Positions 3,980-47,386 of a stretch of 60,924 nt of DNA are shown one piece after another. This DNA comes from Elusimicrobiota bacterium. GTDB taxonomy: Bacteria > CAYTYR01 > UBA6262. The translations under genes and the position numbers were made by a program. Under the pieces are notes generated by a model. That model ran no database searches. It was given only the letters and a program-made list of their open reading frames with translations, and was not told the origin of the DNA. The stretch covers positions 1 to 60,924 of the forward strand of contig PMCA01000005.1 in NCBI GenBank assembly GCA_003153935.1, in the 5' to 3' direction. How positions within the stretch are numbered: the stretch's first letter is position 1; every line of letters starts with the position of its first letter.

Positions 3980-5404
3980 TTGGTGGATAAAAAAGCGGAT
4001 ATTTTAATCGTAGACGACGAAGAAGTTATCCGGGAAATGTTAAAGACCCTGCTGATGCGGGAGGGTTATAACGTTACCGCAGCGGAGAACGGGGCGGCCG
4101 GCATCGACCAGATCCGGAAAGCCTTTTTTAATATCGCCATCGTTGACATTAAACTGACCGACATGAGCGGCATGGAAGTGATGACTAAGATCCGGGAAGT
4201 GCACCCGGAAACCATCGTGCTAATGGTCACGGCCTATGCCACTACGGAGACGGCGATTAAAGCGCTGGAAGCCGGCGTCTATGATTACATCATCAAGCCC
4301 TTTGATATAAATCGCATTAAAATGATCATCAAGCGGGGTGTAGAGGAACAACGTCTCAGCATCGAGAACCGGGAGTTGTTGGCCAGCCTGAAAGTTGAAA
4401 AGGATAAGCTGGAATCGGTGCTGGAGATCGGCAAGATGATGTCCTCCATCCTGAACTTGAACGAGCTGATCACTTTTATTGTCCGTAAAACCACCGAGGT
4501 ATTGCAGGCGCAAAAAGGCTCATTGATGCTGCTGGACGAGGATACCGGCAACCTGATCATACGCGGCGCCATTGGTTTAAGCACGGAGGTTCTTAATTCC
4601 ACCCCAGTCAAAATAGGCGACAAGATCGCCGGCTGGGTAGCCAAACAAGGAGAGCCTTTGCTGGTAATGAACATAGAAACCGATCCCCGGGTCAAAAGAA
4701 CTAACCGGGAGCATTACCACGGAAAATCGTTCATCAGCATTCCCCTGATAAATAAAGATAAAATTCACGGGGTGCTTAACATAGCCGACAAGAAAGACCC
4801 GGGGCAGGGTATTTTCACCCTGGACGATCTTAACTATATCTCCATTATTGTCAACCAGGCGGCGATCGCCATAGAAAACGCTCAACTTTACACGGAAGTC
4901 ACCCGCCTGGCCATTACCGACGCCTTGACCGGCCTGTTCAACCAACGGTATTTCCAGGATCACCTGGTCAACGAAATAAATCGCGCCAAGCGTTACGGGC
5001 GCCCGTTGTCCCTGGTGATGTTTGACATAGATAATTTCAAGAAATATAACGACCAGTATGGGCATTTGACCGGAGACAGCATTCTGCGCAACATTGGCGC
5101 TATTTTAAAAAACAATGCCCGCGAGGTAGATATAGCTTGCCGGTACGGGGGCGAAGAGTTCATGATGATCCTGCCGGAAACGGATTCGGCCGGAGCCATG
5201 GCCATCGCTGAAAAGATCCGGGATGCGGTCTTTACCTGCGACCAGCGGGAGAAAGCCCTGGAGCATGTCGGCAAGATCACCGTCAGCGGCGGGATCGCCC
5301 AGTATGAGAAAAAATTAGAGAAAGAAAACTTTATTCATCGCACCGACCAGGCCATGTACCAGGCAAAAAAAGAAGGCAAGAACAAGATCTGTATCTGGCA
5401 ATAA
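3980..5404 (+). CDS. Response regulator with GAF and GGDEF domains (diguanylate cyclase)
   Basis: The domain order is receiver (residues 8-120, phospho-acceptor Asp56 in VDIKL, Lys in IIKPF), GAF (about 150-305) and GGDEF (about 315-474). The active-site motif is intact as GGEEF (390-394), and an RxxD inhibition site (REVD, 381-384) lies exactly five residues before it. The protein should therefore make c-di-GMP from GTP with product feedback. The start is TTG 3980, with AGGGG 9 bp upstream; GTG 3983 is an alternative. It is likely phosphorylated by the kinase encoded just upstream. Confidence 0.92.
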   Translation: MVDKKADILIVDDEEVIREMLKTLLMREGYNVTAAENGAAGIDQIRKAFFNIAIVDIKLTDMSGMEVMTKIREVHPETIVLMVTAYATTETAIKALEAGVYDYIIKPFDINRIKMIIKRGVEEQRLSIENRELLASLKVEKDKLESVLEIGKMMSSILNLNELITFIVRKTTEVLQAQKGSLMLLDEDTGNLIIRGAIGLSTEVLNSTPVKIGDKIAGWVAKQGEPLLVMNIETDPRVKRTNREHYHGKSFISIPLINKDKIHGVLNIADKKDPGQGIFTLDDLNYISIIVNQAAIAIENAQLYTEVTRLAITDALTGLFNQRYFQDHLVNEINRAKRYGRPLSLVMFDIDNFKKYNDQYGHLTGDSILRNIGAILKNNAREVDIACRYGGEEFMMILPETDSAGAMAIAEKIRDAVFTCDQREKALEHVGKITVSGGIAQYEKKLEKENFIHRTDQAMYQAKKEGKNKICIWQ

Positions 5405-31265: not shown

Positions 31266-32711
31266 ATGGCCGATGAAAATATTAACCAAGAAAATTTGCT
31301 AAGAAAATTAGCCGAGGGTGAAGCCGCTTTACACGAATCCCACAAACAGGAGGCGCGATTTCGGTCGGTGATAAGCACGGCCACCGACGCCATTATATGC
31401 GCCGACCTGGCGGGGAATGTGATGGTGTGGAACGACGCGGCCGAGAACGTCTTTGGCTTTACCCCGGAAGATATGATCAACCAATCACTTACGGTAATAA
31501 TGGCTCCTCCCTGGAATGGGATCTTTCAAACCGAGCTGGAGCGCATAATCAGCACCGGTCACTCCGAATATCTGGGTAAAACTTTCGAAGCCAGGGGGGG
31601 TAAGAAAAATGGACAGCAATTCCCCGCCGAAGTAACTGTTTCCCTGTGGGAAGCGAAAGAGGAGTCATTCCTGACCTTCATTATCAGGGATATATCGGAG
31701 CGTAAGGAAGCGGAAGAGGAGATGCTGGAGTTTACCAGCTACCTGGATAAGATCATTAACTCTATAGCCGATCCGATCTTTGTCAAGGATGAAAAACATC
31801 GCTGGGTATTGCTGAATAACGCGCTCTGCGATTTTCTCGGTTATAAGCAGGAAGAACTTATTGGCCGTTCTGATTTTGATTTCTTTCCCAAAGAACAGGC
31901 GCAGGTGTTTTGGGATAGGGATGAAGTGGTTCTTGCCACCGGCAAAGAAAACACCAACGAAGAACAAATTACGAACGCCAACGGCGCCATTCGCACTATT
32001 GTGACCAAAAAGACCCTCTATACCGATAAGAAGGGGCGTAAATATTTAGTCGGCATCATCCGCGACATTACTGACCAGAATATGGTGGGGGATTCGCTGA
32101 AAGAAAGCTATGATAAATTACAGCGGACCTTGATCGGTACGGCTGATGCTTTAGCCACCGCCCTGGAAAAGAGGGATCCTTATACCGCCGGCCATGAGAA
32201 AAGAGTAGCTAAAGTCGCCTGCGCCATCGCCGCGGAGCTGGGCTACGCCCAGGAGCAGATAGACGGGATCAGGATCACCGCTTTTTTACACGACATCGGG
32301 AAAATAGTCGTGCCGGCGGAAATCCTGTCCAAGCCCAGCAAGCTGAACGAATACGAATATAGTATCGTCAAAACCCATCCGGAAGTGGGTTACGATATTT
32401 TAAAAGGACTGGAATTTCCCTGGCCGGTAGCAAAAATAGTCTTGCAGCATCACGAGCGCTTGAACGGTAGCGGATATCCCAACGGTCTGAATGGCGCGAA
32501 CATGCTGCCCGAAGCCAAAATATTGGCGGTAGCAGACGTAGTTGAGGCCATGGTCTCGCATCGTCCTTACCGGCCGGCCAAAACCATAGACGAGGCGTTG
32601 CAGGAGATAACCCAGAACCGTGATATTCTTTATGACCCGAAAGTGGTGGACGCCTGTGTGACTGTTTTCCGGGAAAAACATTTTACTTTTGACGTTAAAC
32701 CGGGGCCATGA
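31266..32711 (+). CDS. PAS-PAS-HD-GYP sensor protein (putative c-di-GMP phosphodiesterase)
   Basis: A coiled N-terminus leads into two PAS domains (about residues 27-150 and 155-275, each ending in IRDIS/IRDIT-type segments) and an HD-GYP domain (about 285-475). The HD-GYP domain has HDIGK and HHERLNGSGYP, both intact. It should degrade c-di-GMP under control of small-molecule or redox sensing by PAS. It is soluble, with no membrane segment seen. It starts 9 bp after the pyrimidine phosphorylase, and its relation to that operon is unclear. Confidence 0.9.
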   Translation: MADENINQENLLRKLAEGEAALHESHKQEARFRSVISTATDAIICADLAGNVMVWNDAAENVFGFTPEDMINQSLTVIMAPPWNGIFQTELERIISTGHSEYLGKTFEARGGKKNGQQFPAEVTVSLWEAKEESFLTFIIRDISERKEAEEEMLEFTSYLDKIINSIADPIFVKDEKHRWVLLNNALCDFLGYKQEELIGRSDFDFFPKEQAQVFWDRDEVVLATGKENTNEEQITNANGAIRTIVTKKTLYTDKKGRKYLVGIIRDITDQNMVGDSLKESYDKLQRTLIGTADALATALEKRDPYTAGHEKRVAKVACAIAAELGYAQEQIDGIRITAFLHDIGKIVVPAEILSKPSKLNEYEYSIVKTHPEVGYDILKGLEFPWPVAKIVLQHHERLNGSGYPNGLNGANMLPEAKILAVADVVEAMVSHRPYRPAKTIDEALQEITQNRDILYDPKVVDACVTVFREKHFTFDVKPGP

Positions 32712-39009: not shown

Positions 39010-39567
39010 ATGAACCTGTCTGACGTATCTAAAGATCTGCTGCTCAAGACGGCCTCCGGCGATATGCCAGCTTTTGCGGAGATTTACAAGATATCCGCTA
39101 GGTTTGTCTATAGCGTAACTTTGAGGATCCTGGGCAGTCGCGAAGAGGCCCAGGAAACAACCCAGGAAGTGTTCCTGAAGGTCCACCGGAGTTTAAGAGA
39201 TTTCAAGTTCCGGTCATCTTTCAAAACATGGCTCTATCGGATAGCGGTCAATGCCGCGCTTAACAGCCGGAAAAAGATGCAAGCGGACCGGGCCCGGCAA
39301 ATCAGATATAACGAAAATCAGCTGGCCGGCGAGGTTAACGCCGTAGAGACTCTGGATAATGGTCTTGATCAAAACCGGCAGACGGAGAAGATAAACGAAC
39401 TGCTGTCCGGACTGGGTGAAGAGCAGAGAGTTTGTCTGGTCCTGAGGGAAATGCAAGGATTAAGTTATCAGGAAATAGCCCAGACCCTGAACATTAATAT
39501 AAATACCGTACGTTCCAGGCTTAAAAGAGCCCGAGAAAGTCTCCTAAAACAGGGAGGTTACAAATGA
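39010..39567 (+). CDS. ECF-type RNA polymerase sigma factor
   Basis: This 185-aa protein has only sigma regions 2 and 4, which marks the extracytoplasmic-function class. Region 2 (about residues 18-90) has SREEAQETTQEVFLKV and FKTWLYRIAVNAALN. Region 4 (about 130-182) has LVLREMQGLSYQEIAQ and the helix-turn-helix INTVRSRLKRARE. It is preceded by a sigma-E-like promoter and followed, with a 4-bp overlap, by an anti-sigma reading frame carrying an in-frame amber codon. It likely controls the downstream efflux genes. Confidence 0.95.
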   Translation: MNLSDVSKDLLLKTASGDMPAFAEIYKISARFVYSVTLRILGSREEAQETTQEVFLKVHRSLRDFKFRSSFKTWLYRIAVNAALNSRKKMQADRARQIRYNENQLAGEVNAVETLDNGLDQNRQTEKINELLSGLGEEQRVCLVLREMQGLSYQEIAQTLNININTVRSRLKRARESLLKQGGYK

Positions 39568-40049
39568 ACTGCAACCAGATCCGGGATATCATCGCCACCG
39601 ACTATATCGATAATGAACTTGATGAAGGCACGTTAAGCATGATCGAGGCTCATGTGCGCAGTTGCGCCACCTGCCGCGCCTAGAAAGAGGCCCTGGTTAC
39701 TTTAGCCGTCAAACCGCTGCGCCGGCAGGATATTATCGAACCGCCGGAAACTCTGTGGCTTAAGATCCAGGAGGAGCTGGAGCGGGAAGAGACGGATAAC
39801 GAAACCGTTGATCTGGGGGCCTCGCTGGAAGTTTTCCGCCGGCAATGGTTGAACGCTGCTCTGGTGATCGGTATGCTGCTCTGTACCATCCTGGCCGGAA
39901 ATTACTGTGTCACCAAAATATTGAATTCCGCATCCAGTTATCCCTCCCAGGCTACCGTGGAATTCACCAATAACTTGGAACTTACCGAGTTCAGCGATAT
40001 GCCTAATAAGCAGGCAGAGTCGGTTTACGCAGATATGATAGGGGGCTGA
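39564..40049 (+). pseudogene. Zinc-finger anti-sigma factor interrupted by an in-frame TAG
   Basis: ATG 39564 overlaps the sigma stop. Codons 1-39 encode a ZAS-type domain (HVRSCATCR, with the H-x3-C-x2-C pattern at 30-37), and codon 40 is TAG (39681-39683). The same frame then stays open for 121 more codons. This part has a membrane helix (ALVIGMLLCTILAGNY) and an extracytoplasmic tail to the TGA at 40049. Only a single substitution (for example from GAG) separates it from an intact gene. It may be a true nonsense mutation, a sequencing error, or a site of readthrough. As shown, a soluble 39-residue zinc finger would be made. Confidence 0.75.
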
Positions 40050-40053
40050 ACAA

Positions 40054-40545
40054 ATGAAAAAGAAGCTAATGGTTGCTATTTTGATACTGTCCTTGGGCTT
40101 GAACATCGGCATCATCGTCACTTTTGGCCATCACTGGTTCATGGAGAGAGAATTCAGGAAAGGACCGGGCGAAAGCCGCTGGCTCAAGGATAAAATGAAA
40201 AAAGAACTAAATTTAACGGATGAACAGGTCAAATTCATGGAGCAGGACCGGGCAGCTCTCCGCCAGGAAATTAAAGTCATAAGGGAAGAGCTGCAAAAAA
40301 AGCGTTCCGAGCTGTTTACCCAGGTGAACGCGGAGAAAGTTGATAATCAGAAGATCGACCAGCTGATCAATGATATCACCCAGTTACAGGTAAAGGTAGA
40401 GAAGGGGATAATTGGGCATTTGCTCAATATGAAAACCCATCTGACTCCGGAACAGCAAAAAAAGCTGACAGCCGCCATGCAGAAGGGTCCCATGAAGATG
40501 AGAGCGGAGCCGGGATTTGCGGAAGAAGAGCACCAGTCCCGTTAA
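40054..40545 (+). CDS. CnrX/Spy-like periplasmic metal sensor
   Basis: The 163-aa protein has an N-terminal membrane anchor (residues 5-24) and a helical periplasmic part with two LTxxQ-type motifs (LTDEQ at 54-58, LTPEQ at 130-134). Potential ligands His26, His27, Glu63, and the pair His122-x3-Met126 resemble the Ni/Co site described for CnrX (two His, Glu63, His119-x3-Met123). Its position after an ECF sigma and an anti-sigma gene reproduces the CnrYXH layout. It probably modulates the anti-sigma factor on metal binding. Confidence 0.8.
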   Translation: MKKKLMVAILILSLGLNIGIIVTFGHHWFMEREFRKGPGESRWLKDKMKKELNLTDEQVKFMEQDRAALRQEIKVIREELQKKRSELFTQVNAEKVDNQKIDQLINDITQLQVKVEKGIIGHLLNMKTHLTPEQQKKLTAAMQKGPMKMRAEPGFAEEEHQSR

Positions 40546-40579: not shown

Positions 40580-42529
40580 TTGAGAAAGATTTTCGGCATG
40601 CATTTTTTCTTTTTTTTAACGACCTTATTTATCAGCGGGACCAGCTGCTTTGCCGCTGATGTTTCCACGCTGGTGTGGACCAAACAATTAGGCACGGCAG
40701 CCACCGATGCGACTAATGGCGTAGCGATGGATACTGCCGGGAATGTTTTCATAACCGGTTCTACCAACGGGAACCTCGATGGCAATATATCGGCTGGAGG
40801 TGAAGATATCTTCCTGTCCAAGTTTGGTGCCAACGGCCGGAAATACTGGACCAGGCAGGTTGGCAGCGCAGATAACGATGTTGGCTATGGGGTCACCACT
40901 GATAGTGCCGGGTATATTTATGTGGCCGGGACCATAGGCGGTGACGGCAGTCTCAATAACGGCGATATTGTCGTGCTTAAATACGACACCAACGGCAACC
41001 GCATCTGGCTCAGCCGGTCCAGTCCCGGGGGGACCAGCGACGCCTACGGTATCATAGCCGATAATACGGGTAATATCTACGTGACCGGTCTCACCTCCGG
41101 CAATCTGGACGGTAATACCAGTCTGGGAGGATCGGATATTTTCCTGATAAAATATGATAGTGACGGCAATAAGATCTGGACCCGGCAGACCGGCACCAGC
41201 GATGATGATATACCTAAGGGAGTGGCTGTTGACGGGGCGGGGAATGTTTATCTGGCGGGATATACCTACGGCAATATGGCCGGCACCAACCAGGGAGGGG
41301 CGGACATCTTTATACTGAAATACGATACCGGTGGCAACAAGATTTGGACCCGGCAAATTGGGACCGCGCAGGATGATCTGGCCAATGCCCTGACGGCAGA
41401 TACCACCGGTTATTTGTATATCACCGGTTATACTGCCGGCGGCCTGGACAGCAACAGTAACCAGGGGGGCAAAGATATCATTTTATTAAAATATGATACT
41501 GATGGCAACAAGATCTGGACCCGGCAAACGGGTACGGACCAGGACGATGCCGGAACCGGGGTGACTGTTAATAACTCCGGATATATATTTATAACCGGTT
41601 ATACCCAGGGTGGCCTCGACGGCAAAACCAACGCAGGCCTTAGTGATATTTTTACACTCAAGTATGACAATCTCGGCAATAAGATCTGGACCCAGCAGAC
41701 CGGCACTAATACTAATGATGCCGGCAATGGAATCGCAACTGATAGTACCGGGAACGTCTATGTTTGTGGATATACCGTGAACGGCCTTAACGGCAATTCT
41801 CTGCAGGGCGGAACCGATGCGTTTGTCTTGAAGTATAATTCTGACAAAACGCTGTTGTTGTCCTGGCCGGCTGAGACCAACTATGACCAGGGCGGGCTCT
41901 ATCCGACTTTCGGTAACGATTCGACGGTATTTACCTTCAAGGTGGTTTACACTGACGTAGGGAATAGCGCGCCTAAGTCCGGTTATCCGCGGCTGCATAT
42001 AGAAAAAGGCGGCCAGGAGATCAGTGGCAGTCCCGTTACTTTGCTGGAAACCGACGCTAGCGCGCTCGATTTTACTATCGGCAAAACCTATCAATATCAA
42101 TCAGCCTTGCCCTTAGGGAATGATTATGCTTACTGGTTCGAATCTTTGAACACGGCAGGCGCGGCGGCTGGCGGTATACCAACTGGTATCATCAGCGGTC
42201 CTGCTGTGGAAACAACATCCCTGTCCGCGGTCTACACCTATCCTAATCCTGCTAAAGCAGGAAAAATAAACTTTCATGTTTTCTGCGGTTACACCGATCC
42301 CGACTTGACAATACGGATATATGATCTTAACGGCGATAAAGTCGCTACCATAGGAAACGATAAATTTGACGGTTCGCAAAAACCTAACTATTATTTCCGG
42401 AATTGGGACTGCCGTAATGATGCTGGGAATAAGCTGGCCAGCGGCGTTTATATCTACCGGGTTGAGGCTCATGATGCCAGTACCAATGACCATGCGGAAG
42501 CAACGAACAAATTCGCAATAATCAAATAG
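40580..42529 (+). CDS. Secreted SBBP-type seven-bladed beta-propeller with C-terminal FlgD/T9SS-like domain
   Basis: A signal peptide (about residues 1-25) is followed by seven repeats of about 50 residues with the pattern IWTRQTGT, then GNVYLAGYT, then GGxDIFLLKYD (residues 32-430), likely a seven-bladed propeller. A beta-rich segment follows, then a C-terminal domain starting TYPNPAKAGKINF and containing LASGVYIYRV. This resembles FlgD-Ig or type IX sorting domains. TTG 40580 follows GAAGGGAG. It lies inside the sigma/efflux operon and may be surface-exposed; its partner is unknown. Confidence 0.85.
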   Translation: MRKIFGMHFFFFLTTLFISGTSCFAADVSTLVWTKQLGTAATDATNGVAMDTAGNVFITGSTNGNLDGNISAGGEDIFLSKFGANGRKYWTRQVGSADNDVGYGVTTDSAGYIYVAGTIGGDGSLNNGDIVVLKYDTNGNRIWLSRSSPGGTSDAYGIIADNTGNIYVTGLTSGNLDGNTSLGGSDIFLIKYDSDGNKIWTRQTGTSDDDIPKGVAVDGAGNVYLAGYTYGNMAGTNQGGADIFILKYDTGGNKIWTRQIGTAQDDLANALTADTTGYLYITGYTAGGLDSNSNQGGKDIILLKYDTDGNKIWTRQTGTDQDDAGTGVTVNNSGYIFITGYTQGGLDGKTNAGLSDIFTLKYDNLGNKIWTQQTGTNTNDAGNGIATDSTGNVYVCGYTVNGLNGNSLQGGTDAFVLKYNSDKTLLLSWPAETNYDQGGLYPTFGNDSTVFTFKVVYTDVGNSAPKSGYPRLHIEKGGQEISGSPVTLLETDASALDFTIGKTYQYQSALPLGNDYAYWFESLNTAGAAAGGIPTGIISGPAVETTSLSAVYTYPNPAKAGKINFHVFCGYTDPDLTIRIYDLNGDKVATIGNDKFDGSQKPNYYFRNWDCRNDAGNKLASGVYIYRVEAHDASTNDHAEATNKFAIIK

Positions 42530-42543
42530 AAGGCGGAAGAGAT

Positions 42544-43809
42544 ATGAAAAAAATAATTTTACTCTTATGTTTAATGATAGTGATAACCGCTGGAGCTACC
42601 GCCTGGGCGGCGTCCGGGACGGTGCTTACCTGGGAAGATTGCGTGCGCCTGGCGCAGCAGGACCAGCCTAGCCTGGTTTCTTCCAGGGAAAAATTGAAGC
42701 AGGCTCAAGATGCCAAAACCATTACGCAGAGCGGCATTTTCCCCCAAATTAACGGCAGTGCCGGAGCGCAAAAATCCAAGGCCGCAGGCTTCGACAGCCA
42801 AAAGTCTTATTCTTACGGCCTTAACGGCAGCCAGTTACTCTTTGACGGCGCTAAAACTATGTGGAATACGGCCGTAGCTAACGAAAATATCAAGAATGCG
42901 CAATATAATTACGAGGTCACTTCCTCAAATGTTAGGTTAGATCTGCGCTTGGCTTTTGTCAACCTGCTTAAAGCCCAGGAATCGATCAAACTTACCGAGG
43001 ACATTGCCGCACGGCGCCAACAAAATCTGAATTTGATAACTTTACGCTATAAAGCCGGCTTGGAACACCAAGGAGCCCTAATGACCGCGCAAGCGGACCT
43101 GGCCGAAGCTGAGTTTGAAGTAGCTCAGTCCAAAAGGGATTTGCAGCTGGCACAAAGGCAATTGGTCAAAGCTATAGGATTACCAGCATATGTACCGATA
43201 GAGGTGTCAGGCAGTTTCCAGGTCACTGGGGCCATGGAAGCCGAACCAAATTTTGAAAATTTGGCCGCGACCACCCCGTTATTGCAGTCATTAATCGCCC
43301 AGAGAGAATCAGCCCGTTACGGGCTGAGTTCAGCGCAGTCGAATTACCTGCCGCAGGTCTTTGCTTCCGGGTCGGTCAATCGCAGCGCGGACAATTGGCC
43401 GCCTGATCAGAAACAATGGTCCTTGGGGGTTAATTTGAGCTTGCCTATTTTTTCCGGTGGCAGCCAGGTGGCCGGAGCGGCGCGAGCCAGGTCAGCGTAT
43501 GACCAGTCTAAAGCCGATGAGCGCAGCGGCCGCGACGGGGTGATCTTAACCCTGGTACAAACCTGGACAAGTTTCCAGGATGCGGCAGAACAAATTGCCG
43601 TCCAGGAAAAATTCCTGGCGGCGGCGCAGGAACGCGCCAAGATCGCCGAGTCCCAATATTCCATCGGCTTGATCACTTTTGATAACTGGATCATTATCGA
43701 GGACGATCTGATCACTACTAAAAAGAGTTATTTAAATACGCAGGCTAATACCTTAATAACGGAAGCCAATTGGCTGCAGGCCAAAGGAGAGACTTTAGAT
43801 GAAAAATAA
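42544..43809 (+). CDS. TolC-family outer-membrane efflux protein
   Basis: The 421-aa protein has a signal peptide (about residues 1-24) and two OEP repeats rich in long coiled-coil helices, for example SREKLKQAQDAKTI and QADLAEAEFEVAQSK, with a central NYLPQVFASGSVN strand region. TolC trimers form the outer-membrane exit duct of tripartite pumps. It overlaps the adaptor gene by 11 bp. With the adaptor and MacB it completes a tripartite ABC exporter. Confidence 0.93.
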   Translation: MKKIILLLCLMIVITAGATAWAASGTVLTWEDCVRLAQQDQPSLVSSREKLKQAQDAKTITQSGIFPQINGSAGAQKSKAAGFDSQKSYSYGLNGSQLLFDGAKTMWNTAVANENIKNAQYNYEVTSSNVRLDLRLAFVNLLKAQESIKLTEDIAARRQQNLNLITLRYKAGLEHQGALMTAQADLAEAEFEVAQSKRDLQLAQRQLVKAIGLPAYVPIEVSGSFQVTGAMEAEPNFENLAATTPLLQSLIAQRESARYGLSSAQSNYLPQVFASGSVNRSADNWPPDQKQWSLGVNLSLPIFSGGSQVAGAARARSAYDQSKADERSGRDGVILTLVQTWTSFQDAAEQIAVQEKFLAAAQERAKIAESQYSIGLITFDNWIIIEDDLITTKKSYLNTQANTLITEANWLQAKGETLDEK

Positions 43810-44764
43810 AAAGACCAAAGTGTTTGTAATTATTTTAGCGCTGGCCTTACTCTCGGTAGCGGGGTATATATACCGGAAAAACAAGAGTGCCGCTGTTGTC
43901 CCGACAAAAGAGATAAGCCCTTTTTATGGGGAGATACATAATTATGTCTCTTCCACCGGTACCGTGTTACCCCAAAACCGTCTGGAAGTCAAACCGTCGA
44001 TTAACGGGCGAGTGGAGCAAATATTGGTCGAAGAAGGGGATAGTGTCCGTAAAGGTCAAACCTTGGCCTGGATGAGTTCCACCGATAGAGCCGCTTTGCT
44101 GGACGCGGCCAGGGCCCAAGGTCCGGACGCGGTTAAATACTGGCAGGATGTTTATAAACCAACGCCGCTGATCGCACCTGTAGACGGCGAAGTGATCGTG
44201 AAATCGGTGCAGCCGGGACAAACAGTAAGCGTGGCTGACGATGTAGTGGTGCTTTCCGACCGGCTGATCGTAAAAGGGCAATTCGATGAAACCGATATTG
44301 GAAAAATAAAATTGGGTCAGGAAGTGAAGATCAGTCTGGATGCTTATCCGGATATTAAGGCTAAAGGTAAAATCGACCATATTTCTTACGAATCCACCTT
44401 GGTCAGTAACGTCAATATTTATGAAGTGGATATTTTACCAGTAAAAGTCCCGCCAGTGTTCAGGTCCGGTATGAGCGCGAATGTCAACGTGCTTATAGAA
44501 AGCAAGGATAACGTTCTATTAATACCGTTGGCCGCCGTGAAATCGGATAAAGAAGGCACTTATGTAATGTTAGACAAAGGGCAAAAAGATAAACCGGTAC
44601 AGCAAAAGATCGAAGAAGGCATAACCAATGATGTGAACGTGGAAGTAGTCTCCGGCTTAACTCCCCAGGATAAGGTCGTCATGACAGCTACGGCCGGCAA
44701 AGCCGCAAAAACCAGCTCAGGCGGCACCAATCCGTTTATGCCAACCCGCGCTCGGGGAAGATAA
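43799..44764 (+). CDS. Periplasmic adaptor (membrane fusion protein) with a very short hairpin
   Basis: The 321-aa protein has an N-terminal membrane anchor and a first lipoyl half (PSINGRVEQILVEEGDSVRKGQTL). Only about 35 residues lead to the second half (PLIAPVDGEVIVKSVQPGQTV), then beta-barrel and membrane-proximal domains follow. The usual alpha-helical hairpin that reaches TolC is therefore nearly absent. It is MacA/HlyD-like and overlaps tolC, with macB following after 25 bp. Confidence 0.88.
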   Translation: MKNKKTKVFVIILALALLSVAGYIYRKNKSAAVVPTKEISPFYGEIHNYVSSTGTVLPQNRLEVKPSINGRVEQILVEEGDSVRKGQTLAWMSSTDRAALLDAARAQGPDAVKYWQDVYKPTPLIAPVDGEVIVKSVQPGQTVSVADDVVVLSDRLIVKGQFDETDIGKIKLGQEVKISLDAYPDIKAKGKIDHISYESTLVSNVNIYEVDILPVKVPPVFRSGMSANVNVLIESKDNVLLIPLAAVKSDKEGTYVMLDKGQKDKPVQQKIEEGITNDVNVEVVSGLTPQDKVVMTATAGKAAKTSSGGTNPFMPTRARGR

Positions 44765-44789
44765 GACTAAATCACCAAGGAACAAATAA

Positions 44790-46748
44790 ATGATCGAACT
44801 AAAAAATATCAGTAAAAAATATCAGATAGGTACCGCCGGTGTTCAGGCTCTAAAAGACGTATCTTTAAAGATCGAACCGGGAGAGTTTGTCGCCATTATG
44901 GGTCCCTCTGGTTCAGGCAAATCCACTCTCTTGCATATTTTAGGATTCCTGGACCGGCCGGATAGCGGCTCATATTTACTGGGCGGCAAAGATATCACCA
45001 GTTACAATGATGACGAGCTGGCAGTGCTGCGTAATCGTATTGCCGGTTTTGTTTTCCAGCAGTTCCATCTGTTGTCCCGGGTCTCGGCATTGACCAACGC
45101 TGAATTACCCCTGGTCTATGCCGGACGGCATGACTTGAAAAGCAAAGCGCTGGAGAAGATCAAGCAGGTTGGCCTGGCCGACAGGGCCGAGCACCAGCCT
45201 AATGAGCTTTCCGGCGGAGAACAGCAACGGGTGGCTATTGCCCGGGCCCTGGTCAACGAGCCCTTGATAATTTTCGCTGATGAACCCACTGGTAACCTGG
45301 ACACAAAAACCGAGAACGAGATCATGGCTATTCTCAAGGAGCTTAACCGCCAGGGCAAGACTATTATCATGGTTACTCATGAGAGAGAGATTGGCGAACA
45401 CGCGCAGCGGGTTATCAATATGCGCGATGGCAAGATCGTTTCTGATGAACGTCTGCAAAAACTTCCGGTTAATAAAACTATTACCGAAGGATATATTTCT
45501 TCGCAATTAACTAAGGAAAGTTTACGCGGTGCCGGGGCAAATTTCTGGGATCACCTGAAGCAAGCTGTTAACTCCATGGTGGGGCATAAAATGCGGTCTG
45601 TTCTTTCCATGCTGGGCATTCTCATCGGCGTGGCCGCGGTTATCGCCATGTTAGCCCTGGGTTCAGGTGCCAGTGAGTCAATCCAGAAGAGTCTGGCTTC
45701 TTTAGGGTCTAACCTGTTAATGATAATGCCCGGAGGGCACCAGCAGGGTTTTGTTTCCCTGGGAGCTGGAGCGGTGACCAGGTTCACGATTCAGGATGAA
45801 GAGGACGTGGCAAAATTACCAGAAGTAAAAAACGCTACTGCTAACGTCCGCGGGCGGGGCCAGATCGTATACCAGGATAAAAACTGGAGCACCCAGATAC
45901 TGGGGACCGGAGTTAATTATCCTACTATGAGAGCCTCAGTGCCTGCGGTAGGGAGGTTTTTTACTGATGAGGATGTTACTGTACGGCAGAAAGTAGTGCT
46001 TTTGGGTAATACTGTAGTTACCCAGTTATTTGGCGATGCCAGCCCGATAGGCGCTACGATCAAGATCAACCGTATTTATTTTACCGTGATCGGAGTTTTG
46101 CCAACTAAAGGAGCTGGCGGGTTCCAGGACCAGGATGATATAGTAGTTATTCCGTATACCACAGCCATGTACCGTGTTCTCGGCAAAGAGTATATAGATT
46201 ATATTGATGCGGAAATCAAAGATGCCAGCTTGATGGACCAGGCTCAGGATTCGATCAAAGGGTTGATCATCCAGCGGCATCATTTAGGTAAGGATAGCGA
46301 AGATTCTTTCCAGATCCGTAATATGAACGATATCCAGCAAACAGTGGCGAGCACCACCAAAACCATGAGCATGCTGCTGGGCTCGATCGCCGCTATATCG
46401 CTGCTGGTCGGTGGCATCGGCATTATGAACATAATGCTGGTGTCAGTCCGGGAGCGCACCAGGGAAATAGGTTTGCGTAAGGCCATCGGCGCCCGAGGCA
46501 AAGACATACTGATGCAGTTCCTCATCGAAGCAGTGGTGATGACCTTCAGCGGAGGGATAATAGGTGTCTTGGTAGGCGCCGGCATCGCTTTAGGTTTCTC
46601 CTTCTTTGCGGGCTGGGCCACTAAATTATCTTCGTTCTCCATAATACTGGCCTGTGGTTTTTCTATCCTGGTGGGAGTAGGCTTCGGCCTCTGGCCTGCC
46701 AAACAGGCCGCCAAACTCGATCCGATCGAAGCTCTGCGTTACGAATAA
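44790..46748 (+). CDS. MacB-type ABC exporter (fused ATPase and permease)
   Basis: The 652-aa protein has an N-terminal ABC ATPase (Walker [10 protein letters not shown] near residue 38, signature [15 protein letters not shown], Walker [11 protein letters not shown]) followed by a MacB permease. The permease has a first membrane helix near 270, a large periplasmic domain, and three C-terminal membrane helices with [13 protein letters not shown] and [13 protein letters not shown]. MacB drives export of peptides, lipids or antibiotics from the periplasm through TolC by mechanotransmission. The length matches classical MacB. Confidence 0.93.
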
Positions 46749-46768: not shown

Positions 46769-47386
46769 ATGTTCAGTAAATTCGTCTCAATAATTATTGG
46801 GATTGTTTTTTTAGGGATAACCGTCAGTTTCGCGGAAGACTTGACACCGGCCCAAGGACTCCCGGGCCAGGGTTTGGAATGGTCGGATTACGGGCTTAAT
46901 TTTGAATGGGCCAAGGACAAAAACCTGCTGACGGAATTAGGGCTCACTGCCACTCAGCAGGAGGAATTAGAAAAATTAGAAGCCGCCGCGGCACAGGAAG
47001 AGCCAACTGATAAAGATATCGCGGATAAAACAGCCCAACTAAAAAAACAAATAGAGCTGAAGAGCCTGGTAACGATAAATGGACAATCTGTGCAACCCAA
47101 TCAAGATGATATCAGTTCCCTGATCGGACAGTTAACCAAATTAAGAGGCGAGAAGTACGCCAGGCAAATGTCCCTGAAAGCCAAATTAAGAATGTTATTA
47201 TCGGATAAGCAGAGAGATAAGCTATATGCTCATTTTCAGAATAAGGAAACTGAGCTCAGGGATAAATTCAGGGAACAAATGAAAGGACAGACGGGCGAAC
47301 AACGCGGAGAAATGGGCGGTCACCGGGATATGGGTGGCATGGGCGGGATGGGCCACGGCGGCTTTGGCGGACCCGGCGGATTTTAA
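46769..47386 (+). CDS. Spy-like periplasmic protein with Gly/Met/His-rich tail
   Basis: This 205-aa protein has a signal peptide (about residues 1-22) and a helical body with two LTxxQ-like motifs (LTATQQEEL and LLSDKQRDKL), as in Spy/CpxP/ZraP proteins. It ends in a low-complexity tail rich in Gly, Met and His (from about residue 175) that could bind soft metals such as copper. It sits between macB and a second ABC transporter in the same operon. The metal role is inference. Confidence 0.72.
   Translation: MFSKFVSIIIGIVFLGITVSFAEDLTPAQGLPGQGLEWSDYGLNFEWAKDKNLLTELGLTATQQEELEKLEAAAAQEEPTDKDIADKTAQLKKQIELKSLVTINGQSVQPNQDDISSLIGQLTKLRGEKYARQMSLKAKLRMLLSDKQRDKLYAHFQNKETELRDKFREQMKGQTGEQRGEMGGHRDMGGMGGMGHGGFGGPGGF

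Follow-up and report, generated by a model that had tools for sequence, protein, structure and literature searches.

The window, the whole stretch of 60,924 nucleotides that was analysed, contains an ECF sigma factor gene and, directly beside it, an anti-sigma gene whose reading frame is interrupted by an in-frame TAG. Genes for a periplasmic protein and for a MacAB-TolC type export system lie downstream on the same strand. The features are as follows.

39010..39567, plus strand: ECF sigma factor, 185 aa, intact (Sigma70_r2, Sigma70_r4_2 and sigma70-ECF TIGR02937 above cut-off)
39564..39683, plus strand: 5' part of the anti-sigma gene, 39 codons, with the zinc ligands C3/H30/C34/C37 and D16 (zf-HC2 PF13490, 30.7 bits against a cut-off of 22.2; alignment)
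39681..39683, plus strand: in-frame TAG, codon 40 of the anti-sigma gene, in helix 3 (sequence, alignment and model)
39684..40049, plus strand: 3' part of the anti-sigma gene, with the rest of helix 3, the linker, helix 4 (W65), the membrane helix and the periplasmic tail
40054..40545, plus strand: periplasmic CpxP/Spy/CnrX-type protein (Metal_resist PF13801, LTXXQ), adjoining the sigma/anti-sigma pair in relatives too
42544-43809, plus strand: TolC-type outer-membrane protein
43799-44764, plus strand: MacA-type adaptor
44790-46748, plus strand: MacB-type ABC transporter

The interrupted gene and its neighbours

The TGA of the sigma gene overlaps the ATG of the anti-sigma gene as ATGA. The anti-sigma gene reads MNCNQIRDIIATDYIDNELDEGTLSMIEAHVRSCATCRA up to the TAG at 39681-39683, after which 121 codons are open as far as a TGA at 40047-40049. 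The frame (39564-40049) translates as MNCNQ...HVRSCATCRA*KEALV...DMIGG*, with a periplasmic tail ending in LTEFSDMPN...IGG; translation confirms the in-frame TAG of the preliminary description, which is preceded by 39 residues. Codon-usage scoring marks the sequence downstream of the TAG as coding in this frame, at +41.7 bits, whereas the two alternative forward frames score -49.5 and -43.0. No other stop-interrupted coding stretch in 443 kb of the genome is as strong, which is more than would be expected by chance. Re-initiation yielding a separate membrane protein was considered and rejected; the frame contains no start codon for 55 codons after the TAG, and the first in-frame start, a TTG at 39849, has no Shine-Dalgarno-like sequence just before it. 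A Tyr codon and TAG have their first two bases in common, so that a single change at the third base, 39683, turns Tyr into the stop. The check proposed earlier, for a G or T at 39681, was misplaced, as that position is the T of the TAG.

The CpxP/Spy-like, TolC, MacA and MacB genes suggest an envelope-stress or export regulon, and the last three (42544..46748) are probably targets of the sigma factor. CnrYXH consists of an ECF sigma factor, an anti-sigma factor and a CnrX-type periplasmic sensor; CnrY is short and non-zinc, and the pump is of the RND type. The locus resembles it in the three-gene layout of sigma factor, anti-sigma factor and Metal_resist (PF13801) periplasmic protein adjoining an efflux system, but has a zinc-type domain in place of the short CnrY and MacAB in place of the RND pump. 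Between the CpxP-like and TolC genes sits a gene (40580-42529) for a secreted seven-repeat beta-propeller protein (SBBP) with a C-terminal match to a FlgD/Por-type secretion tail; in the relative L019 the CpxP-like and TolC genes are immediate neighbours, in that order. On the 3' side of MacB, 46769-47386 encodes a second small protein (205 aa) with a glycine/methionine-rich end and a CpxP-like look, which no Pfam or NCBIfam model matched.

Fold of the anti-sigma factor and position of the stop

The gene is predicted to encode a membrane-anchored class I zinc-type anti-sigma factor (ZAS/ASDI, RsiW-like). The Pfam model zf-HC2 scores above cut-off in the first 38 residues. A search of the solved structures with the single sequence gave nothing useful; with a profile of 20 homologues the best match is RsiW of Bacillus subtilis (5WUQ, E = 6.2e-8, residues 1-79), followed by ChrR and, weakly, by DdvA and RslA. 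Together with the sigma/anti-sigma gene pair, the zf-HC2 and RsiW matches bear out the identity assigned in the preliminary description. C3, H30, C34 and C37, which make up an Hx3Cx2C motif and an N-terminal cysteine, are invariant in the 20 aligned sequences, and D16 is nearly so. AlphaFold models the read-through protein with helices at residues 3-14, 21-33, 35-54 and 62-80, and a further, long helix (84-123) contains the hydrophobic membrane stretch (approximately residues 95-118); the sigma-binding domain extends to about residue 80. Foldseek with this model returned weak matches (E at best 0.92), the top ones all being anti-sigma domains. RsiW (5WUQ/5WUR), the anti-sigma factor of SigW, shares the C3/H30/C34/C37 ligands, the numbering of D16, and the four-helix domain with one membrane helix. 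Unlike in RsiW, the frame here is broken in helix 3 and the neighbours are CpxP-like and MacAB-TolC genes; overall identity is low.

Both the RsiW structure and the AlphaFold model place codon 40 in helix 3 of the sigma-binding domain, five residues past the beginning of that helix. The four-helix domain, including helix 4, is whole only when the TAG is read through; the encoded product ends at residue 39, in helix 3. The earlier placement of the TAG exactly between the zinc-finger and membrane parts holds for the 35-position Pfam zf-HC2 model only, as the real domain reaches to about residue 80. In RsiW, zinc is bound by C3, H30, C34 and C37, and D16 contacts sigma4; motif 1 buries 489 Å2, motif 2 (the C-terminal half of helix 3) 1316 Å2, and motif 3 (the helix 3/linker region, which contacts sigma2) 1805 Å2, with approximately 3610 Å2 buried in total (PMC5358783). 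Motifs 2 and 3, with more than 80% of the buried surface, map after the stop position. Class-wide coevolution assigns 12 of the 14 strongest contacts to helix 4 with sigma2 (PMC7406223), and helix 4, with the alignment-invariant W65, is lost past the stop. As little of helix 3 and nothing of the linker or helix 4 is retained, the 39-residue product should be inactive and, on the basis of sequence and model, should be unable to hold the sigma factor. This contradicts one outcome put forward previously, in which the sigma factor is held by a soluble 39-residue domain; the other, its permanent release, is a fair consequence only if the stop is real.

Relatives and the use of TAG in the genome

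The set covered five genomes of the phylum, two of which (G001 and G003) belong to the same family but to another genus; the protein sequences of the UBA6262 'Elusimicrobia bacterium' L019 are the same as those of G003. Both same-family genomes share with the window the gene order membrane protein, sigma factor, anti-sigma factor, CpxP-like protein. Their anti-sigma frames are intact, with TAT (Tyr) and TTT (Phe) at the TAG site, so the codon comparison proposed in the preliminary description yields sense codons in both and no shared stop. No stop occurs at this site in any of the 19 homologues scored, 17 of which have Phe, one Tyr (L002) and one Leu (L039); the distant homologue L036 was left out of the scoring because of a gap nearby. 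In a search of 386 genomes, no other match was interrupted within the sigma-binding domain among the matches listed. Recurrent stops in homologues were considered and rejected, as the three flagged matches are complete soluble proteins of 73-78 residues that end after helix 4. The stop is lineage-specific and the gene is intact in relatives, as in a nonsense pseudogene. Mean identity to 18 outgroups before the stop is 36.9% for the window and 37.9% for an intact sister; after the stop the values are 24.3% and 21.1%. As there is no extra divergence after the stop, either the stop is recent, or it is spurious, or the region is still translated; continued translation has no mechanism in its favour.

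Coding frames that run past a stop or lack a start were scanned for by codon-usage log-odds in 443 kb, about one-quarter of the genome, and the anti-sigma gene was the only clear nonsense interruption found. Widespread in-frame stops were rejected, the other candidates being explained by adjacent ordinary genes, by antisense shadows, or by NN gaps that break the frame in a small contig. The draft assembly comprises 36 contigs and contains internal NN runs; on contigs other than that of the window, some of these runs disrupt reading frames. In L138 (G000 C7:1-5624), two-base N runs at 1256-1257, 4990-4991 and 5255-5256 coincide with frame breaks in genes that are otherwise good, one of them for a polysaccharide chain-length type protein; such breaks beside NN are therefore artefacts of the assembly. 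A tRNA-Gly (GCC) at L152 930-1000 (G000 C3 ~32130-32195) is also broken by NN and was missed by ARAGORN.

RF1 is present in the genome. PylS was not found in this 95% complete genome with the N-terminal model TIGR03912, which does match Methanosarcina. None of the 38 tRNAs found has a CUA anticodon (named by ARAGORN, except for two unnamed ones that read CAT and GCC by eye). TAG ends 60 of the 291 ORFs of at least 200 codons in the 443 kb (approximately 21%), in agreement with the earlier remark that it serves as an ordinary stop elsewhere. On these four grounds, TAG reassignment, pyrrolysine and a suppressor tRNA were rejected within the limits of the draft genome. RNA structure after the stop is no stronger than in shuffled sequences (z = 0.03). 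The suggestion that read-through could regulate expression is not sustained by the tRNA set, by PylS, RF1 or RNA structure, or by the relatives, which have no stop.

Origin and consequences of the stop codon

The explanation we prefer, with a probability of roughly 0.48, is a young natural null allele, in which one recent nonsense mutation has struck an ordinary RsiW-like gene in this organism or strain. The weights given to all explanations are judgements rather than computed values. Translation would stop after 39 residues, and the fragment would keep the zinc ligands but end early in helix 3 and lack helix 4 entirely, leaving no sigma clamp. The ECF sigma factor would be free and its regulon constitutively on; that regulon is probably its own operon, which encodes MacAB-TolC export and the CpxP-like chaperone. 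We infer that inhibition is lost, which genes form the regulon, and that the base is real. Natural anti-sigma variants that raise sigma activity are found in RskA of Mycobacterium bovis and M. orygis (PMC7509140). These mutations raise the activity of the sigma regulon, as proposed here; unlike here, they lie in the extracytoplasmic part and turn RskA into an activator, with no truncation (PMC7509140). Against a null allele, the base rests on one draft genome, with one genome per species, and other contigs of the assembly have frame breaks at NN. Constitutive sigma activity may also carry a cost, in which case an error or an allele of low frequency would be likelier.

A consensus or assembly error is a serious contender. 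The anti-sigma gene of the cells would then be intact and the TAG an incorrect base in an assembly that is a draft and probably derives from a metagenome. The isolation of this nonsense codon in 443 kb fits such an error, as do the good conservation of the rest of the gene and operon, which show no decay, and the state of the draft, whose NN placeholders disrupt some frames. About 4% of random coding substitutions make a stop, so that approximately one stop would be expected from a few tens of base errors in a genome. However, the window is without N, no other nonsense interruption was found in it, and single-base errors are uncommon at moderate coverage. Low or regulated read-through, with amber suppression setting the amount of full-length anti-sigma factor, is improbable. 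The downstream frame is open, strongly coding and not decaying, and a basal event would insert a residue where relatives have an aromatic one; nevertheless, 0 of 38 tRNAs read UAG, the RF1, PylS and RNA structure results all speak against it, no other interrupted gene was found in the 443 kb, no relative has the stop, and the basal level would be far too low for a stoichiometric inhibitor. We give still less weight to the amber codon as a maintained switch, where a near-cognate tRNA or slow termination under stress would set the full-length level and termination efficiency would control an envelope-stress sigma factor; programmed control of the stop is unlikely.

The 39-residue zinc fragment might instead be a working soluble anti-sigma factor or modulator produced by evolved shortening, which we consider very doubtful, slightly more so than the switch. 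It keeps all of C3, H30, C34 and C37 for zinc and, in helix 1, the contact residue D16, and a natural RskA truncation of 81 residues in Nocardia still inhibits SigK (PMC7509140). The Nocardia gene resembles the present one in that a stop codon, natural in that case, cuts off the membrane part of the protein (PMC7509140). The Nocardia remnant, however, has the full sigma-binding domain and is fixed across several species, whereas the product encoded here retains only half of that domain, and none of the relatives carries the stop. The whole four-helix domain is kept in the soluble homologues of 73-78 residues as well, while the surfaces corresponding to RsiW motifs 2 and 3 (PMC5358783) lie beyond the end of the fragment. 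In addition, the codons after the stop would be free to decay, yet have not. That TAG is a sense codon in this organism, through pyrrolysine or code reassignment, has the in-frame TAG alone in its favour; with RF1 present, PylS not found, no CUA tRNA and TAG in common use as a stop, we regard its probability as close to nil.

Whether the base is real or an error, the TAG calls for no new mechanism. In the case of an error, the system is an ordinary one, and the locus shows how little a single nonsense codon in a draft genome says about regulation. If the base is real, as in the null allele that we prefer, an uncultured lineage would have lost an anti-sigma factor naturally and would express an envelope-stress/export regulon constitutively; comparable natural variants are already known in mycobacteria and Nocardia.
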